Part shown: one piece after another, positions 13,732 to 22,676 of the stretch | Layout: every line of letters begins with the position of its first letter | How positions within the stretch are numbered: the stretch's first letter is position 1 | Source of the DNA: Actinomycetota bacterium | Lineage (GTDB): Bacteria > Actinomycetota > Aquicultoria > Subteraquimicrobiales > Subteraquimicrobiaceae | Length of the DNA: 59,925 bases | Reading direction: 5' to 3' | Assembly: GCA_030018275.1 (NCBI GenBank) | Contig: JASEGB010000005.1 | Span: 35,956 to 95,880 of the forward strand | Position numbers and translations under genes: made by a program | The notes under the pieces: model-generated | The model's database searches: none | What the model saw: only the letters and a program-made list of their open reading frames with translations | What the model was told of the DNA's origin: nothing

Positions 13732-13974
13732 TATTTTTTGAAGGAATTTTTGTTTGATCGTGGAAATTACAGCTAATTGTATTATGAGGAATATTAAATT
13801 GTTTGGATTAGAAATCATTAATTTAAAAAAGTTAGCGGACATTAATAGGATTAGCTGGGAAATTGGCAAAAGCATAAAGTGTTTAAAAATTCTTCGGAGC
13901 TTGAAAGTGGGATTATGGAAACTTTGGGATGTTCAGGAAGCACTAAGTGATTCGTTTGGTTGGAGGATTGGCAA

Positions 13975-14670
13975 GTGGTTGAAAAGAGAATGAGTTTCAT
14001 TGAACATCTTGAAGAGCTCCGAAGACGTCTCATTATTTGTATCTTTGCGGTTTTTATAGCGGCCTGTGCCTGTTATGCATTTTGGAGACCAATTCTATGG
14101 CTCATCACCAGACCACTGGGGGGGCACAAGTTATATTACGCAACTGTAATGGAGCCCTTTATTGGTAGGTTTCGTATTGCTGCTTTTGCCGGAGTTTTTG
14201 TTGCGTTTCCGATTATACTCTATGAGTTCCTAGCCTTCGTGGCTCCAGCATTGAGAAGGAAAGAGAAGAGATTCATATATCCGATTTTATGTTTGCTCAT
14301 TTTCTTCTTTATCTGTGGTGTGGTCTTTGGTTATATGTATCTGTTGCCGGTGAGTGTGGATTGGCTGATAGCCCAAGGGGAGGGATTGTTAAAACCGATT
14401 CTCACATTTGATAGGTATATCGCTTTCGCGGCTTTATTCCTATTGGCTTGTGGAGTTGGTTTTGAGACCCCCGTAGTCATATTATTTTTGGTAAAATTGG
14501 GTGTTGTGAGTCCACAAGCGCTTAGAAGGCAATGGAGGGTGGCATATATCATCATCCTAATTGTAGCGGCTATAATTACTCCCGATTGGAGTCCCATAAC
14601 TATGGCTGTTATGGCCATACCAATGATAGCATTATACGAAATAAGTATCCTTTTAGCACGCCTTTTCTAG
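13975..14670 (+). CDS. tatC: Sec-independent protein translocase TatC
   Basis: About 231 residues with the TatC signature near the N-terminus (MSFIEHLEELRRRLI), a conserved Pro-rich first periplasmic loop (MEPFIGRFRIAAFAGVFVAF) and six membrane helices to LLARLF. It is the receptor for twin-arginine signal peptides. GTG 13975 is preferred because GGAGG lies 8 nt upstream; ATG 13990 is the alternative. No tatA/tatB is visible nearby. It directly precedes the hydrogenase operon, whose small subunit has a twin-arginine signal, so the placement is functional. The 243-nt gap upstream (13732-13974) shows no gene I can support. Confidence 0.9.
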   Translation: MVEKRMSFIEHLEELRRRLIICIFAVFIAACACYAFWRPILWLITRPLGGHKLYYATVMEPFIGRFRIAAFAGVFVAFPIILYEFLAFVAPALRRKEKRFIYPILCLLIFFFICGVVFGYMYLLPVSVDWLIAQGEGLLKPILTFDRYIAFAALFLLACGVGFETPVVILFLVKLGVVSPQALRRQWRVAYIIILIVAAIITPDWSPITMAVMAIPMIALYEISILLARLF

Positions 14671-14806: not shown

Positions 14807-14896
14807 ATGAAGATCACCCGTCTCGAATTCTTTAAAGTTTGTGCTCGCACGTTCACTGCCCTTGGCGCTGCCATTTTGGCATCCTTCAAAGCTTAG
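14807..14896 (+). CDS. 29-residue twin-arginine-like mini-ORF ahead of the hydrogenase
   Basis: ATG 14807 follows a very strong site GAGGGAGGTG. The peptide begins MKITRLEFFKVCARTF and continues into a hydrophobic stretch (TALGAAILASF) ending KA. It looks like the front of a Tat signal peptide of a formate-dehydrogenase or hydrogenase subunit (S/T-R-R-x-F-x-K pattern), but Arg2 is Leu, and nothing follows. The next gene's ribosome-binding site AGGAGGTG begins at its stop codon. It may be a translated leader for the hydrogenase operon or the stub of a lost subunit. No known family. Confidence 0.5.
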   Translation: MKITRLEFFKVCARTFTALGAAILASFKA

Positions 14897-14910: not shown

Positions 14911-15999
14911 GTGGAAAGCATTTTTAAGGGCTTAAGCCGTAGAGATTTTCTGAAATATTGTGCCAGCATCGCCGCAATGTTAGGACTCTCGGAAATTTAT
15001 GTCCCTCAGATTGCTGCAGCTCTTGAGGAAGCGGCGAAGGGTAAGCCACCTGTGATATGGATGCAGGGGCAAAGTTGCGCTGGTTGCACCGTCTCTTTCA
15101 TCAATTCTCGGGAACCTACCCCTGCTGAATTGGTCTTGGATATTTTATCCGTTAGGTTTCACCCCAATATAATGGCGGCAGCTGGGGATGTCGCTCTTAA
15201 TGCCATTGAGACCACCATGGAGGAAGCGAAGGGCAAATACGTCTACATCTTTGAGGGCGCTTTGCCCACGGCGGAGGAGGGTCGCTTCTGCGAAATCGGT
15301 GAAACTTCAGCGGTAGATTGGGTGAAAAAAGTTGCCAAAGATGCTCATGCGGTCATCGCCATAGGTGCCTGTGCTTCATTTGGTGGGATCCCCGCAGCCA
15401 ATCGGGAAACTACGGGTGCCTCAAGCGTGCAGGATATTCTGGGCACCCCGGTCGTTAAGATTCCAGGTTGTCCCGCTCATCCGGATTGGGTGATTGGAAC
15501 CGTGGTCAAACTGCTGCTCTTTGGAAAGGATGCTGTGTTAGATGGTCTTGATAAATATGGTCGTCCCAAGGAGTTTTATGGCACCCTGATCCATGATAAT
15601 TGTCCCAGGCGACACTGGTTCGAAGCTGGAAAATTCGTCGAAGACTTCAATGATCCCGAGCAAGCAAATTACTGCCTACTACTAAAGGGGTGTAAAGGTC
15701 CCTTCACCTATGCTGATTGTCCCAAGAGGAAGTGGAATTCCGGAACCAATTTCTGTATCGATGCCAATGCTCCTTGCCAGGGATGTACTCAGCCCGAGTT
15801 CTATGCCAAGTTTTCACCTCTTTACGAGAAATTACCGGAAATCGGCATCCCTGGAATCGCTGGCTATGAGGTCAGTGCAGATACCATCGCCAAAGTGCTC
15901 GGTATTGTAACCGCCGCTGGCATTGGTCTCCACTTGGTTGGTCAAATAGCCACTGGACGCCTTGGCAAAGGTGGTCCACCAGAAAGGGGTGAGAAGTAA
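14911..15999 (+). CDS. [NiFe(Se)] hydrogenase small subunit, Tat-exported
   Basis: 362 residues. Residues 8-15 carry the twin-arginine motif SRRDFLKY, followed by a hydrophobic signal. Fe-S ligands follow: QSCAGCTVSF (proximal), GACASFGG, GCPAHPDW, then HDNCPRR and a C-terminal cluster region FCIDANAPCQGC. At the position where ordinary [NiFe] enzymes have Pro (NWP..) this protein has Cys282, predicting a medial [4Fe-4S] rather than [3Fe-4S] cluster, the arrangement known for [NiFeSe] enzymes. The C-terminus has a hydrophobic helix (LGIVTAAGIGLHLVGQIA) that can anchor it in the membrane. GTG 14911 follows AGGAGGTG. It overlaps the large subunit start by one base. Confidence 0.92.
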   Translation: MESIFKGLSRRDFLKYCASIAAMLGLSEIYVPQIAAALEEAAKGKPPVIWMQGQSCAGCTVSFINSREPTPAELVLDILSVRFHPNIMAAAGDVALNAIETTMEEAKGKYVYIFEGALPTAEEGRFCEIGETSAVDWVKKVAKDAHAVIAIGACASFGGIPAANRETTGASSVQDILGTPVVKIPGCPAHPDWVIGTVVKLLLFGKDAVLDGLDKYGRPKEFYGTLIHDNCPRRHWFEAGKFVEDFNDPEQANYCLLLKGCKGPFTYADCPKRKWNSGTNFCIDANAPCQGCTQPEFYAKFSPLYEKLPEIGIPGIAGYEVSADTIAKVLGIVTAAGIGLHLVGQIATGRLGKGGPPERGEK

Positions 16000-17561
16000 T
16001 GGCACAAAAGATAACAATTGACCCCATAACCAGGATTGAGGGACATTTAAAGATCGAAGTTGAAGTCGAGGATGGTAAGGTAAAAGAAGCTTACAGCACG
16101 GGGGCTATGGCTCGTGGTTTTGAGCAACTCCTAGTGGGTAAAGATCCTCGAGATGCCCAGATCGTCACCCAGAGGATTTGTGGTGTCTGCCCGGCCTCCC
16201 ATGGTCTCGCTGCTGCGCAAAACCTCGATGATGCTTTTGATGCGAAGGTACCCGATAACGCCAGGATCATCCGCAATTTGATCGTTGGTTCGAACTACGT
16301 TATGTCCCACATTCTTCACTTCTATCACCTTGCAGCCCTGGACTACTTGGATGTCATGGCTATAGCCAAGTATATGGGTAAAGACCCCGAGCTGTTGGCG
16401 GTGAAGGAGAAGGTAGTTGGACTGGTCGAAGTAGAGGATACATACCCACTCAAGCCCAGGTATGAACCCGATGAATTCAGCATTGATGACCCCGAGATCG
16501 TGACCACGGCTGTGGCACATTACCTCGAAGCTTTGGAGAAGAGGAAGAAAGCTCACGAAATGTTGACGATCTTCGGTGGAAAGATGCCCTGCTATTGCAG
16601 TCTGGTTCCGGGAGGGGTGACCATCCATCCCACGCCGGACATGATCGCCGCTTTCAAATATCACCTCATGGATTTGATCGATTTCGTGAACAATGTCTAT
16701 TTGGCGGATGTCCTTGCCTTGGGAACCGGTCCTCTTCTGCCCATCCATCAACTGAAGGTGGGAGCTGGTGTCGGCAACTTCTTATCCTTCGGCATGTTCG
16801 ATCTTGGTGTATCGGGCGACTATAAGAACCGTTTCCTCAAGTCTGGTGTGATCATGGAGGGAAAGATAACCGAGGTTAAGGAATTCGATCCCACCAAGAT
16901 CAAAGAGGCGGTCAAATACTCTTGGTACACGGAGGACTGCGGAGGATTGCATCCAACGGAGGGTAAGACGGTGTATGATCTGGATAAGGAGGGTGCATAT
17001 TCCTTTGCAAAGGCTCCGAGATACGATGGTAAACCGGTGGAGGTGAATACCCTCGCCAGGATGCTCATAACGCAGGATAAGGGATTCATGGACTTGGTGA
17101 ACAAAATCGGAGCTCATCCCTCAGCGTTGGCTCGCCACGCCGCTCGAGCCTGGGAGTGCAAGATGGTAGCCGAAGCCATGCTCGATTGGCTGGATGAGCT
17201 GGTGGACAATCTCAAAGCGGGAAATACCGATGTCTGCGACGATAAGCCCGTTCCCGAGAAGGGTGAGGGAATAGGTATGGTGGAAGCTCCTCGAGGCTGT
17301 CTTCTCCATTGTGTTCAGATAGAGGGTAAGAAGATCAAACGTTACCAGGTCATCGCGGCTACGAATTGGAATGTCTGTCCGAGGGATGAGGAGGGTCAAA
17401 GAGGTCCCATCGAAGAGGCTCTCATTGGAACGCCGGTCCCCGATCCAAATAATCCCATCAACGTCGTGCGGGTGGTTAGATCTTTCGATCCGTGAATTGC
17501 CTGTGCGGTTCACGTGATTGAACCAAGGACTAACCGAGTTCTCAAGTTCCAAATCGGCTAG
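15999..17561 (+). CDS. [NiFeSe] hydrogenase large subunit with in-frame UGA (selenocysteine 499)
   Basis: H2-activating subunit. N-terminal Ni ligands RICGVCPASHG are residues 59-69. The C-terminal motif is reached at 17487: Asp-Pro is followed by TGA (17493-17495), then IACAVHVIEPR without a break and TAG at 17559-17561. That is the L2 motif DP-C-xx-C-xx-H with the first Cys codon replaced by UGA, so I read it as selenocysteine 499. Cys502 and His505 follow; the 15 residues after His505 are the peptide normally removed by a maturation protease (gene at 18160). A SECIS-like hairpin lies at 17507. An annotation stopping at the UGA would lose two Ni ligands. The alternative, a Cys-to-stop mutation, is less likely given intact flanks and operon. 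Confidence 0.88.
17493..17495 (+). other. UGA codon predicted to encode selenocysteine
   Basis: It occupies the position of the first Cys in the DPCxxCxxH nickel-binding motif of the hydrogenase large subunit. Translation products on both sides are conserved in frame. Confidence 0.82.
17507..17524 (+). promoter_or_regulatory. SECIS-like stem-loop
   Basis: GGTTCA and TGAACC form a perfect 6-bp stem around loop CGTGAT. The loop starts 18 nt after the UGA, within the 16-37 nt window known for bacterial SECIS elements, and has G at its second position. SelB binding is inferred. Confidence 0.6.
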
Positions 17562-17572
17562 GAGGTGCGAAA

Positions 17573-18163
17573 ATGGCTAGAATGGTAGAAGAACACCCCC
17601 TGCCGGCTCGAATAATGCATTGGATACACCTGCTATGCATGGGTGGATTGGCGATCTCCGGCTGGTATATCCATCGTCCCTTCTTTGAGGGGGGTATGGG
17701 TATAATGAGGTGGGTCCACTTCATCTGCATGTATGTGGTTCTCATCAACCTGGTGGCTCGGATTTACTGGGCATTTTTGGGTGCAGCTCGCGATTGGCAT
17801 GAATTTGCCTTACGTCCAAGGGACATCAGGAATACCGGCAAAATCGTCGTCTATTATCTATTCATTAAGAGGGAACACCCGGAGGTGGGGAAGTATAATC
17901 CCCCCCAGAAGCTGATCTACGGCTGGCTTTGGCCCCTTCTATTGATCTTTCAGGCGATCAGCGGTTTTGCCCTTTACGGTCCCACGGCTGACTACTTTGC
18001 CTGGTTCACGGTGTGGGTTGGTGGTTTGGCACACGTGAGGCTGATCCATTACATGACCATGTGGGCATTCATCATCACCGTGGCTCTGCATGTCTACTTA
18101 AGTTTGGCAGAGGATTTCAAGTCGTTCCTGTATATGTTCTTTGGGGTTAGACCGGAAGAGTGA
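17573..18163 (+). CDS. Hydrogenase cytochrome b subunit (HyaC/CybH type)
   Basis: A 196-residue membrane dihaem cytochrome b with four helices. His ligand candidates are in PARIMHWIHLLCM (helix 1), WVHFICMYVV (helix 2), and VRLIHYMTMWAFIITVALHV (helix 4). It passes electrons from the hydrogenase dimer to quinone. It starts 11 nt after the end of the Sec-extended large subunit, behind GGCTAGGAGGTG, so the true large-subunit end at 17561 fits the operon spacing better than the UGA at 17495. Its TGA overlaps the GTG of the protease gene. Confidence 0.9.
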   Translation: MARMVEEHPLPARIMHWIHLLCMGGLAISGWYIHRPFFEGGMGIMRWVHFICMYVVLINLVARIYWAFLGAARDWHEFALRPRDIRNTGKIVVYYLFIKREHPEVGKYNPPQKLIYGWLWPLLLIFQAISGFALYGPTADYFAWFTVWVGGLAHVRLIHYMTMWAFIITVALHVYLSLAEDFKSFLYMFFGVRPEE

Positions 18164-18639
18164 GAGTGGGTAGCGCCGATTCAAAATTTCATGAACAGAT
18201 ATTTGTCGTGGGAGTGGGAAATATCCTCCTCAAGGACGAGGGGATAGGTGTCCATGTCATTCGAGAGATGGAGAAGCTGGATTTGCCCAAGAATGTGAGG
18301 GTTATTGATGGAGGCACTGCCGGCTTTGATCTTGGCTATCTCATCGAAGGCGCCGACAGACTCATAGTCATCGACGCCATCGACGCCGGGCGTGAGCCCG
18401 GCGCGATCTTTAAATTCCGTCCCGAGGATATCAAGGCGAAGCCCAAGAGATACTTTACCTCCGCTCACGAGGTTGGATTGCTTGAAGCTCTGGAGATGGC
18501 AAAGCGCATGGGTAAATGTCCCCAAACGGTTATCTTTGGCATTCAGCCCAAAGAAATCGATTGGGGAATGGAGCTCTCACCGGAACTTAAGGCAAAAATC
18601 ACCGAGATCATCGAGTTGATACTGAAAGAAATCTCATAA
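18160..18639 (+). CDS. Hydrogenase maturation endopeptidase (HycI/HyaD family)
   Basis: This protease of about 159 residues clips the C-terminal peptide of the large subunit after Ni insertion. Motifs: VVGVGNILLKDEGIGVHVI (Ni-binding Glu/Asp) near residue 16, DGGTAGFDLGYLI near 47, LIVIDAIDAG near 66, and TSAHEVGLLEAL near 100. GTG 18160 overlaps the cytochrome stop (GTGA), so translation is coupled. A GCCGGGC..GCCCGGC inverted pair at 18384-18403 lies within conserved codons and does not look inserted. Confidence 0.9.
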   Translation: MRVGSADSKFHEQIFVVGVGNILLKDEGIGVHVIREMEKLDLPKNVRVIDGGTAGFDLGYLIEGADRLIVIDAIDAGREPGAIFKFRPEDIKAKPKRYFTSAHEVGLLEALEMAKRMGKCPQTVIFGIQPKEIDWGMELSPELKAKITEIIELILKEIS

Positions 18640-18714: not shown

Positions 18715-18767
18715 GTATCTTATTGCTTTTAGTTAATATCTAAACAAACTCTGTGTTCGGTGAAGTC

Positions 18768-19109
18768 ATGCATGAACTGGGAATAACCGAGAATATCCTA
18801 TCTATTGCCTTGGAGCAAGCCCAACAGCGGGATGCAAAAAAGATATTAAAGATAAGACTCAAGATTGGCGAGATGACCGCCGTTGTTGATGAATGCATAC
18901 GATTCTACTTTGAGATATTGAGCAAGGATACCATGGCCGAGGGTGCCGAAATTGAAGTAGAAAATGTGCCAATTAAGGTCAAGTGTCCAAGGTGTGGGAA
19001 AATTCGGGAGGCTAATGACTATAATTTCATTTGTCCCCAGTGTGAGGTATTGAGCACCGAAATCGTTTCGGGAAGAGAGCTTTACGTGTCCAGCATCGAG
19101 ATAGAATAA
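18768..19109 (+). CDS. hypA: Hydrogenase nickel-insertion protein HypA
   Basis: 113 residues. It starts with the Ni-binding MHEL, which fixes the start at ATG 18768 rather than the upstream GTG 18753. Zinc ribbon CPRC near residue 70 and CPQC near 87. HypA works with HypB to deliver Ni to the large subunit. It lies beyond the hairpin at 18686, so it may have its own promoter. Confidence 0.93.
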   Translation: MHELGITENILSIALEQAQQRDAKKILKIRLKIGEMTAVVDECIRFYFEILSKDTMAEGAEIEVENVPIKVKCPRCGKIREANDYNFICPQCEVLSTEIVSGRELYVSSIEIE

Positions 19110-19166: not shown

Positions 19167-19249
19167 ACTATAATAAATCGGTTGGCTGGTTGGCTCGTTT
19201 GCTAGGAAAAGATCAAACAAACTAGTGAACCAGTTGATGGGTGGTAAAG

Positions 19250-19939
19250 ATGGAGATAAAAGTGCTTCGGAATATCCTCGAAGCCAATGAAGCAATTGCC
19301 AGGGAGAATGCCCGATTATTCAAGGATAAAGGGGTCTTTGTAATCAATATTATGTCATCACCTGGAGCTGGGAAAACCAGTTTTATTTTGCGTACCCTTG
19401 AGAGGTTAAAGGATGATTTTAAAGTGGCGGTCATTGAAGGAGACATCGCCTCGAAGGTGGACGCGGAAAAAATTCAGGAACAGGGAGCACCCGCCGTCCA
19501 GATAAATACCGGTGGTGCCTGCCATCTCGATGCCAATATGATCAAGAATGCCCTAAATCTTTTAAATTTGGATGACATCGATCTATTGATCATCGAAAAT
19601 GTGGGCAATCTCGTCTGTCCAGCGGAATTCAATCTGGGAGAAGATCTGAAACTGATGATTTTAAGCACCCCTGAAGGTGATGATAAACCCCTCAAATATC
19701 CTCAGATGTTTACCCTATGCTCCGTTCTCGTCCTCAATAAAATAGATCTACTTAACCAAACCAATTTTAACCTTCGAAAAGTGAGGGAATCCGCGGCGAA
19801 ATTAAATGCAAATCTTCAAATTTTTGAAGTCTCCTGCACCACGGGACGGGGAATAGACAATTGGGTTACCTGGTTAAAAAATAAGCTCCTGCTCGGACGT
19901 CTACAGACCCATAGGGGATCCGTGGGAGGGAGAGAATAA
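19250..19939 (+). CDS. hypB: Hydrogenase maturation GTPase HypB
   Basis: About 229 residues. P-loop SSPGAGKTSF near 35, EGDIASKVDAEKI, NTGGACHLDANMI and ENVGNLVCPAEF, and GTP-specificity LNKIDLL near 165. It has no His-rich Ni-storage N-terminus. It drives GTP-dependent Ni insertion with HypA. ATG 19250 follows GGGTGG; GTG 19241 is a weaker alternative. hypC, hypD, hypE and hypF are not in the window. Confidence 0.93.
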   Translation: MEIKVLRNILEANEAIARENARLFKDKGVFVINIMSSPGAGKTSFILRTLERLKDDFKVAVIEGDIASKVDAEKIQEQGAPAVQINTGGACHLDANMIKNALNLLNLDDIDLLIIENVGNLVCPAEFNLGEDLKLMILSTPEGDDKPLKYPQMFTLCSVLVLNKIDLLNQTNFNLRKVRESAAKLNANLQIFEVSCTTGRGIDNWVTWLKNKLLLGRLQTHRGSVGGRE

Positions 19940-19988: not shown

Positions 19989-22676
19989 ATGTCAAGGTTG
20001 ATCGTTTGCGAAAAGAATATAGCTGCGAGAAGGATTGCCCATATCCTTTCCGAGGGGAGGGCAAAGCTTGAGATGATTCACAATGTGCCCGTATATGTTT
20101 TTTCCTACGGATCCGAAGGACATGATAGGGAAGAGCAGGTGAAATGCATCGGGCTGAAGGGACATATTTTGAAGGTCGATTTCCCCGCACAGTATAACAA
20201 CTGGCAAGAGATAGACCCCATAAAGCTCATCGACGCTCCCATAGTCAAGGTGCCCACCCAAAAATCCATCCTTAAAGCCTTACAAAAGGTGGCAAAAGAT
20301 GCAGATGTTGCCGTGATTAGCACGGATTTTGACCGCGAAGGGGAGCTGATAGGCATAGATGCGGTGAATAAGATCAGGGAGGTCAACCCAAATATAAAAG
20401 TGAAGAGGGCAAGATTCTCAAGCTTGACCGAATCCGAAATCAAAAGGGCTTTTTCCAATCTCGAGGATGTATACATGAGCCTTGCTCAGGCGGGAGAAGC
20501 AAGGCAGGATATTGATCTCATTTGGGGAGCCACACTAACTCGTTTCTTATCCCTCGCCTCATCGCGTTTGGGTAGGCAGTTTCTTTCCGTGGGACGGGTG
20601 CAGAGCCCAACTCTGTCTCTGGTCGCGGATAGGGAAAAAAAGAGGCAAGAGCACAAACCGAAACCATACTGGCTGGTAAAAGCCCTCTTCGAGTCCCGCG
20701 GATCTGAGCAATTTATCGCTCTTCATAAGATCGAAAGATTTTGGGACAAGCTAGAAGCGGAGACGGTACTTTCCAGATTGGGGAAGATGGGCAAAGTCGT
20801 CGATATTTCCACGGTCAGAAAGGTGCTTAAACCACCAACACCTTTTAATACCACTGCGTTTCTTAGTGCCGCTGCTTCCATTGGCGTATCTCCTTCAAGG
20901 GCCATGCGCATCGCCGAAAATCTGTACATGGAGGGACTCATCAGTTACCCACGGGTGGACAACACCGTCTATCCCCCCTCTTTAAATTTCGATGAAATCT
21001 TAAAAATTCTGGGGGGGAGTCCTGAATTGGGTAATCTTGCAAATCTCATCCTCAGGCAGGAGAAGATCATTCCCACCAGAGGAAAAACGGAGGCCACTGA
21101 CCATCCACCCATTCATCCCACGGGTTTGGCCAAAAAGGAAGATTTAAAGGCTCAAGAGTGGAAGGTCTACGAGCTCGTATGCCGTAGATTCTTTGGAACC
21201 CTCGCTCCAGAGGCCTCGCTTCAGAGCGTAAGAATCGATATCGAATCCGGTGGGGAGCACCTCAATGTTCGAGGTACCGCGGTGGTGAATGAGGGATGGC
21301 TAGAATTTTACCCCTACGGTCGCAAAAAGGGTGAAGAATTACCCACTCTTAAGAAAGGTGATGAGTTAAAACTCGTCAAACCCATATTGGAGGAGAAGGA
21401 GACGCAACCTCCACCCCGATATACCCAGGGGCAGTTGATTCAAAAAATGGAGGCTCTTGGACTCGGCACTAAATGTTTGACTGGCGATACTTCTATAAAG
21501 ATTGTCCGAGATCAAGGAATAGAAAATGTTAAACTTGAGACTCTTTTCTCCAGCTGTAAATATCTTGGAGAAATCCAGTATGAAGATGAAAGAATAGAAG
21601 TTGCAGAAAATAATGGTGGGTATAAATGTTTTTCCTTCAATGGCAATGAGATTATTGAAAGTGAGTTTTATGGTGTTAGTAGAAGGCGTCTTAGAGAAGA
21701 TGAAAAGGTTTACGAAATCTTTTTCGAGGACGGAAGTAGTCTTAAAGCTACGGATAGGCATCTTATTTGCGCATACGATGGCAGGGAGTTGACCTACGTA
21801 CCTTGCTGTGCACTAGCAAGTGGAAGTTTAGTTATTTCCGACACCCCCTTCATTAGGACGCGTCTCTATGGGCGCGACTGTGACGCCAAATTATCCACGC
21901 CCTTAATTGAAAAGGAAATCATGAAATCCCTTGAAAATCGGATGTTAGAGGGGAAAATTATCGGGTGGAATGTGGTAACGAAGAAGGTAAAATTCATTCG
22001 CAAAGTAACTTATAACGGTTATATTTATGATATTTTAAATGTCAATAATTTTTCAAATTTTGTTCTCTCAAATAATGTTGTGGTCCATAACTCGACGAGG
22101 CATGAGATCATCAAAAATCTTTACGACAGGAGTTATATCCATGGCGATCCCATCGTCCCCACGGAGATGGGATTGGCCGTCGCCGAAGCTTTAAGGAGGC
22201 ACGCCGACACGATTTCCACACCCCAGATGACAGCTGAGCTGGAAAAGGATATGGATGCCATAGCCGAAGGGAAGGTTGCCAGGGAAAGCGTGGTCGATCG
22301 CTCAAGGAATATTCTCGCTAGGACAATGCTGGATTTGGGCAGGAAAAAAGAGGCGCTTGCAGGGGAGATAAGGGAGGGTATTCGAGAGGATAAAATCATT
22401 GGAAAATGCCCTCGTTGTGGGATGGATTTAAAGATAATTCGGGCTAAAAAATCGAAGAAAAGATTCATAGGATGCACGGGATATCCTGAATGCAATATGG
22501 CATATCCCCTTCCCCAATATGGCGAGATCATCACCTTAGACGATGTTTGTGAGGTATGCCATTCACCGAAGATTAAGGTAATTGGGAGACCCCCAACTAG
22601 TCGGGGTGGAAAATCCCCAAAACCTTGGATTTTGTGTATCGACCCCAATTGTCCCACCAAGAAGGGAAGTGATTAA
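19989..22676 (+). CDS. topA: Archaeal-type DNA topoisomerase I with an intein
   Basis: Type IA topoisomerase, 895 residues including an intein of 206. TOPRIM Asp/Glu motif STDFDREGELIG is near residue 118; active-site Tyr is in EGLISYPRVDN near 320; HPTGLAKKEDL and YTQGQLIQKMEALGLGT precede the intein, and STRHEIIKNLYDRSYI follows it. The sequence pattern (IGLKGHILKVDFP; GTK-STRHEI) is that of archaeal topoisomerase I rather than the usual actinobacterial enzyme, although it holds the actinobacterial topA-tmk-holB position. C-terminal zinc ribbons: CPRCGMDL..CTGYPEC and CEVC..CIDPNC. Between them the loop GRPPTSRGGKSP is coded by a palindrome at 22589-22607. ATG 19989 follows AGAAGGGA. Confidence 0.92.
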   Translation: MSRLIVCEKNIAARRIAHILSEGRAKLEMIHNVPVYVFSYGSEGHDREEQVKCIGLKGHILKVDFPAQYNNWQEIDPIKLIDAPIVKVPTQKSILKALQKVAKDADVAVISTDFDREGELIGIDAVNKIREVNPNIKVKRARFSSLTESEIKRAFSNLEDVYMSLAQAGEARQDIDLIWGATLTRFLSLASSRLGRQFLSVGRVQSPTLSLVADREKKRQEHKPKPYWLVKALFESRGSEQFIALHKIERFWDKLEAETVLSRLGKMGKVVDISTVRKVLKPPTPFNTTAFLSAAASIGVSPSRAMRIAENLYMEGLISYPRVDNTVYPPSLNFDEILKILGGSPELGNLANLILRQEKIIPTRGKTEATDHPPIHPTGLAKKEDLKAQEWKVYELVCRRFFGTLAPEASLQSVRIDIESGGEHLNVRGTAVVNEGWLEFYPYGRKKGEELPTLKKGDELKLVKPILEEKETQPPPRYTQGQLIQKMEALGLGTKCLTGDTSIKIVRDQGIENVKLETLFSSCKYLGEIQYEDERIEVAENNGGYKCFSFNGNEIIESEFYGVSRRRLREDEKVYEIFFEDGSSLKATDRHLICAYDGRELTYVPCCALASGSLVISDTPFIRTRLYGRDCDAKLSTPLIEKEIMKSLENRMLEGKIIGWNVVTKKVKFIRKVTYNGYIYDILNVNNFSNFVLSNNVVVHNSTRHEIIKNLYDRSYIHGDPIVPTEMGLAVAEALRRHADTISTPQMTAELEKDMDAIAEGKVARESVVDRSRNILARTMLDLGRKKEALAGEIREGIREDKIIGKCPRCGMDLKIIRAKKSKKRFIGCTGYPECNMAYPLPQYGEIITLDDVCEVCHSPKIKVIGRPPTSRGGKSPKPWILCIDPNCPTKKGSD
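21474..22091 (+). other. Mini-intein in topA (206 residues, Cys496 to Asn701)
   Basis: Splicing block A CLTGDTSIKIV starts at Cys496 right after extein GLGTK. Block B is LKATDRHLICAYDG (TxxH). Block F is KFIRKVTYNGYIYDILN-like, and block G is VLSNNVVVHN followed by Ser, the expected His-Asn-Ser junction. About 206 residues is at the mini-intein scale, with no recognisable LAGLIDADG or HNH endonuclease motif. It sits in the most conserved part of the topoisomerase gate, the usual intein habit. It should excise itself to give an active enzyme. Confidence 0.9.
22589..22607. repeat. Palindromic element inside topA
   Basis: ACCCC / GGGGT arms around an ACTAGT core. It codes part of the linker GRPPTSRGG between the last zinc ribbons. 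Confidence 0.5.

Follow-up and report, generated by a model that had tools for sequence, protein, structure and literature searches.

By all the sequence evidence, the hydrogenase large-subunit gene in the window (the whole stretch of 59,925 nucleotides analysed here) is a genuine [NiFeSe] hydrogenase gene, in which an in-frame UGA almost certainly codes for selenocysteine (Sec). This reading, proposed in the earlier note, is supported by the presence of Sec machinery in the host genome, the conservation of the UGA in relatives, and an intact operon. The host belongs to the genus Candidatus Subteraquimicrobium (Actinomycetota, Aquicultoria), and its genome is 1.49 Mb in length and 99% complete.

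The UGA Codon and the Read-Through Frame

The relevant features of the window are as follows.

13960–14670, + strand: tatC, Tat translocase subunit (Pfam TatC, 203.5 bits; same neighbour in G001)
14911–15999, + strand: hydrogenase small subunit, with a Tat signal (SRRDFLK) and a putative C-terminal membrane helix (TIGR00391, 319 bits)
15999–17561, + strand: hydrogenase large subunit of 520 aa, Sec499 included, ending at TAG (NF033181, Pfam NiFeSe_Hases, PDB 5jsu_B)
16179–16190, + strand: N-terminal Ni-ligand motif C61-G-V-C64 (C61 and C64 are invariant columns in alignment A1)
17493–17495, + strand: UGA codon, almost certainly selenocysteine 499 (in-frame TGA, shared by eight other genomes of the class; 5jsh_B alignment)
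17502–17513, + strand: rest of the C-terminal motif, Cys502 to His505 (C502 and H505 invariant in the alignment)
17507–17524, + strand: SECIS-like hairpin, 6-bp stem, loop CGUGAU (sequence, fold, excess synonymous conservation, bSECIS constraints)
17514–17558, + strand: C-terminal peptide V506–G520, the part that the protease is expected to remove (follows His505)
17573–18163, + strand: Ni/Fe-hydrogenase b-type cytochrome, with a real TGA stop at its end (TIGR02125, 129.4 bits, cutoff 121.5)
18160–18639, + strand: hydrogenase maturation protease, HycI/HupD family (TIGR00072, 156.1 bits, cutoff 47.5)
18753–19109, + strand: hypA, nickel chaperone (TIGR00100, 107.6 bits, cutoff 88.1)
19241–19939, + strand: hypB, nickel GTPase (TIGR00073, 272.1 bits, cutoff 121.2)

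The positions given in the earlier note are all correct. A direct reading of the sequence finds a single in-frame TGA in the large-subunit frame, at codon 499, and confirms that it falls on the first Cys of the DPCxxCxxH motif and that the frame then stays open for 21 codons to the TAG at 17559–17561 (tail sequence IACAVHVIEPRTNRVLKFQIG). The codon occupies the terminal Ni-ligand position of DP(U/C)xxCxxH, the local peptide being RSFDPUIACAVH, and in the alignment with the NiFeSe structure 5jsh_B it pairs with the modified active-site residue, X. The best PDB match of the large subunit is the [NiFeSe] large subunit 5jsu_B, and Pfam NiFeSe_Hases matches it with 487.9 bits. The His at the position of His505 is the chain end in many mature PDB chains. 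The earlier note expected automated annotation to truncate the gene; this is not certain, because NCBIfam already has a NiFeSe_hydrog model, NF033181, which matches residues 2–517 of the read-through protein with 756.6 bits against a cutoff of 600.

The Operon

The cytochrome b gene begins with the ATG at 17573, which is, as previously noted, 11 nt 3' of the large-subunit TAG, with AGGAGGTG at 17560–17567. The small subunit has a TAT_signal match of 26.4 bits and a C-terminal membrane helix that is a by-eye, putative reading; among PDB structures, the subunit is best matched by 2wpn_A, the [NiFeSe] small subunit of D. vulgaris. The order of tatC, both subunits, cytochrome b, and protease is identical in G001, a separate assembly from the same genus, so that the operon is both intact and conserved in the genus; hypD lies elsewhere in the genome, away from the operon. 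Two further observations concern this region. Directly 5' of the small subunit, a 29-codon ORF (14807–14896; MKITRLEFFKVCARTFTALGAAILASFKA) resembles a second Tat-like leader, and the DNA topoisomerase I gene at 19989–22676 contains an in-frame intein (Pfam Intein_splicing, residues 508–701).

The small subunit has Cys282 (context NFC282IDANAPC) at the Pro/Cys position of the medial cluster. The earlier note located this residue correctly and took it as a sign of a [NiFeSe] enzyme, but it is not diagnostic, because many Cys-type relatives also have Cys there and one UGA-type enzyme, that of G062, has Pro instead. Cys282 was, therefore, rejected as evidence for selenium.

The Selenocysteine Machinery

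The search for selA, selB, selD, and tRNA-Sec found all four in the host genome: selA (644 bits), selB (426 bits), and a tRNA-Sec with a UCA anticodon (80 bits) are adjacent on contig C10, and selD (378 bits) is on C9 and has its own in-frame Sec UGA at SGUAAKIG. In addition, three molybdopterin oxidoreductases of the formate-dehydrogenase type (MopB/FdhA) have a UGA at the AR(I/L)UH site:

L165, on C10 of the host (G000): UGA-bearing formate-dehydrogenase-type gene
L167, on C4 of the host: UGA-bearing formate-dehydrogenase-type gene
L168, on C1 of the host: UGA-bearing formate-dehydrogenase-type gene

The hydrogenase, selD, and these three genes together make it likely that the organism encodes at least five selenoproteins. 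In two of the three formate-dehydrogenase-type genes, GGUCU lies at the loop of the predicted hairpin or beside it, like the E. coli type. Across the relatives, all UGA-bearing genomes with a completeness above 80% have selB above the cutoff; G035, which is 77% complete, has a hydrogenase gene of a second UGA clade (see below) without a selB match.

A selC*/selB* Pair in Actinomycetota

A second tRNA of the host (L054, C9: 2695–2783) is shaped like a tRNA-Sec and has a GCA anticodon and U73, which fits the description of the selC* tRNA-Cys (PMC7609411). That publication gives the range of selC* as only Firmicutes, Thermodesulfobacteria, Nitrospirae, and Proteobacteria. Downstream of the tRNA, at about 2949–4390 of C9, is a second selB, which is decayed in the host genome; in G037, G009, G020, G034, and G001 (there as far as the contig end), its frame is open. 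The selC*-like tRNA and the open second selB in relatives, therefore, extend the selC*/selB* pair to Actinomycetota.

UGA and Cysteine Codons among Relatives

The survey of relatives covered 99 genomes, apparently fragmented assemblies mostly from metagenomes. A comparison of homologues for UGA or Cys, as suggested in the earlier note, found both: within the clade of the window enzyme, UGA is present at the homologous codon in the host and in eight further genomes of the same class (G000–G003, G005, G012, G018, G024, and G033), whereas other relatives have a Cys codon, TGC or TGT (G037, G052, G066, G020, G031, G032, G013, G049, G076, and others). The close relatives thus have UGA, and the operon is intact, rather than the close relatives having Cys and the operon being in decay. 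In seven of the eight further genomes, the frame continues in the alignment, the exception being G033. In 396 genomes of the phylum, no additional UGA member of the window clade was found outside the class. The G033 gene (L146, on C230) keeps RSFDP-UGA and is followed by a sequence unrelated to the usual tail, as in a broken gene or a misassembly. Two other UGA codons were ruled out as Sec codons: that of G038 (C93) is an ordinary stop following CAVH, and that of G009 (L039) sits beyond a Cys motif.

A second clade of UGA hydrogenases, about 40% identical to the window enzyme, was observed in the Actinomycetota genomes G007, G013, G018, G022, G031, G032, G035, G062, and G075. Its UGA is at the same site, and most of its members have the identical 18-nt hairpin. 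Three genomes (G013, G031, and G032) have both Cys-type and UGA-type hydrogenases. In a further set of group 1 hydrogenases (Desulfobacteraceae, Thermoflexus, and BMS3Bbin08), the UGA is in the N-terminal CxxC, which reads CGVUT or UGVUT, and the Cys of the C-terminal motif is kept; L106, L112, and L130 have one such UGA, and L116, L119, L133, and L136 have two.

The Hairpin Downstream of the UGA

The positions of the hairpin were verified: the stem GGTTCA/TGAACC is at 17507–17512 and 17519–17524, the loop CGTGAT is at 17513–17518, and the gap from UGA to loop is 17 nt. The hairpin satisfies the bSECIS constraints quoted in PMC13188914 (a loop of 3–9 nt, a stem of 4–16 bp, a G in the first two loop positions, and a spacing of 16–37 nt) and may be bound by SelB. 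However, its energy in the single sequence is unremarkable, since about 21% of synonymous recodings of the same peptide fold equally well. A similar stem turns up at about 13% of random positions in the window (in a scan that was one base off and saw 5 bp for the hydrogenase hairpin), and no Rfam family matches the hairpin.

Since the energy of the single hairpin gave no clear signal, codon conservation between genes was used instead. In pairs of UGA-bearing genes with at most 70% protein identity, synonymous-codon identity is 75% in the seven codons of the hairpin versus 37% gene-wide and 33% just 5' of the hairpin; the corresponding values in the hairpin window are 48% for Cys–Cys pairs and 26% for UGA–Cys pairs, all these percentages being descriptive, as the gene pairs are not independent. 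The hairpin codons give the top values among the 239 seven-codon windows of the gene. The significance of the hairpin thus comes from its conservation across UGA-bearing relatives and not from its energy in a single sequence. The identical GGTTCACGTGATTGAACC is found in the second UGA clade, whose proteins are only about 40% identical to the window enzyme. Most of the UGA genes share the identical stem, and the others pair in different registers: in G005, G012, and G024, the hairpin bases differ and a 7-bp stem is kept, while G018 has a different possible hairpin further 3', with the loop GGUCU, which the energy does not favour.

Alternative Readings of the UGA

One alternative is that the UGA is a true stop, in a pseudogene or a gene for a truncated protein. 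Elsewhere in the window, TGA serves as an ordinary stop (17 of about 50 ORFs, with the large-subunit gene left out of the count), the neighbouring genes normally end in it, and the UGA of G033 has no homologous tail. However, truncation would lose the invariant C502 and H505 along with the ligand at position 499, seven further genomes conserve the tail at the level of both protein and codons, and the operon shows no damage, so that a true stop is highly improbable. A Cys codon turned into UGA by faulty sequencing or assembly would agree with the TGC or TGT of the relatives, but the same UGA at the homologous codon in separate genomes, with protein identities of 62–98% and including UBA2594, makes such an error extremely unlikely.

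A further possibility is that an amino acid other than Sec is inserted at the UGA, for example Cys by a tRNA-Cys resembling tRNA-Sec. The genome does have a second tRNA of tRNA-Sec shape that shows Cys identity features (C9: 2695–2783), and Desulfobacterales are known to have a selC* tRNA-Cys that reads opal codons (PMC7609411). The anticodon of this second tRNA is, however, GCA and not UCA, its selB* partner is decayed in the host genome, and a regular tRNA-Sec (UCA) is present with selA and selD; there is, consequently, very little chance that the codon is read as Cys or any other such amino acid. The preferred reading remains the insertion of selenocysteine.

A Proposed Mechanism for Insertion and Maturation

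What is established about group 1 hydrogenases and about bacterial Sec insertion provides a mechanism that is very likely to apply as a whole to this [NiFeSe] large subunit. SelB, with Sec-tRNA(UCA), would recognise the hairpin at 17507–17524 and insert selenocysteine at the UGA at 17493; Sec499 would then be the terminal Ni ligand in the place of Cys. Once the Ni had been inserted, the protease encoded at 18160 would cut off the last 15 residues, after His505. The complex would be exported by the Tat system via the signal on the small subunit and then anchored in the membrane, with electrons passing from H2 to cytochrome b and on to quinone. The enzyme is probably of the membrane-anchored, Tat-exported H2:quinone type with a cytochrome b; Sec insertion, Ni ligation, cleavage, the direction of catalysis, and the quinone acceptor are all inferred from such known systems.

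Phylogeny

An unrooted tree of 62 hydrogenase proteins included seven members of the class. Four changes are required to account for the UGA state on it, and at least three of these fall on well-supported branches. The seven UGA members of the class may form one clade, an arrangement for which the AU test gives p = 0.40. A grouping of these members with the UGA-bearing enzymes of Desulfobacteraceae is, in contrast, rejected (p = 0.004), and this rejection of a union with classical HysA implies that, as read from the unrooted tree, Sec in hydrogenases is a character gained or lost several times. A more tentative idea, held at somewhat less than even chances, is that Sec entered the active site separately in the Aquicultoria lineage, and not via classical HysA, and that the identical hairpin of the second clade, at about 40% identity, was imposed by a single SelB.

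Significance

According to a 2026 review, [NiFeSe] hydrogenases are exclusive to sulfate reducers and methanogens (PMC13188914). Against this restriction, the present results suggest that such enzymes recur across one class of Actinomycetota, here in a deep-branching actinobacterium of the deep subsurface, which combines the UGA hydrogenase with formate dehydrogenases of the selenium type. dsrA was not found in the host genome, in a search that was without a positive control since no control genome passed the cutoff either. The literature search on the hydrogenases of Hakubella, Subteraquimicrobium, and Aquicultor found nothing useful, and, as subscription papers were largely outside it, an earlier report is possible. 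The chemistry is known, the lineage is one not reported in the literature examined, and the branch is separate from the sulfate-reducer enzymes. The relatives also provide natural pairs of Sec and Cys hydrogenases at about 55–65% identity, along with the three genomes that have both types. Such close pairs make the benefit of selenium to a hydrogenase, a long-standing question, testable. [NiFeSe] enzymes are wanted for hydrogen production on account of their activity and their recovery from oxygen.

Comparison with Known Hydrogenases

HydDB places [NiFeSe] variants in groups 1a, 3a, and 3c (PMC5037454). The closest solved structure for both subunits is HysAB, the periplasmic [NiFeSe] hydrogenase of Desulfovibrio and Desulfomicrobium (PDB 5jsu, 2wpn, and 1cc1), which has Sec at the same Ni-ligand position and, like the window enzyme, the medial-cluster Cys in the small subunit. 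The window enzyme is nevertheless not a classical HysA: it scores below the curated cutoffs of NF045518 and NF045520 (520 versus 780 and 336.6 versus 470), is on a branch separate from the HysA clade (taken as the UGA-bearing Desulfobacteraceae enzymes), and, unlike HysAB, is co-encoded with a cytochrome b. The broader family NF033181 (NiFeSe_hydrog) matches the large subunit over its full length and above the cutoff, and no difference from it was identified. Cys-type group 1 hydrogenases of Acididesulfobacillus, Desulfosporosinus, and other Actinomycetota are in the same large clade as the window enzyme, at 54–61% identity, but have TGC or TGT at the Sec position and do not share the hairpin codons. 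Conversely, the second UGA clade of Actinomycetota (G007, G022, G062, G075, and others) has its Sec codon in the same place as the window gene, and yet it is a separate clade at only about 40% protein identity.
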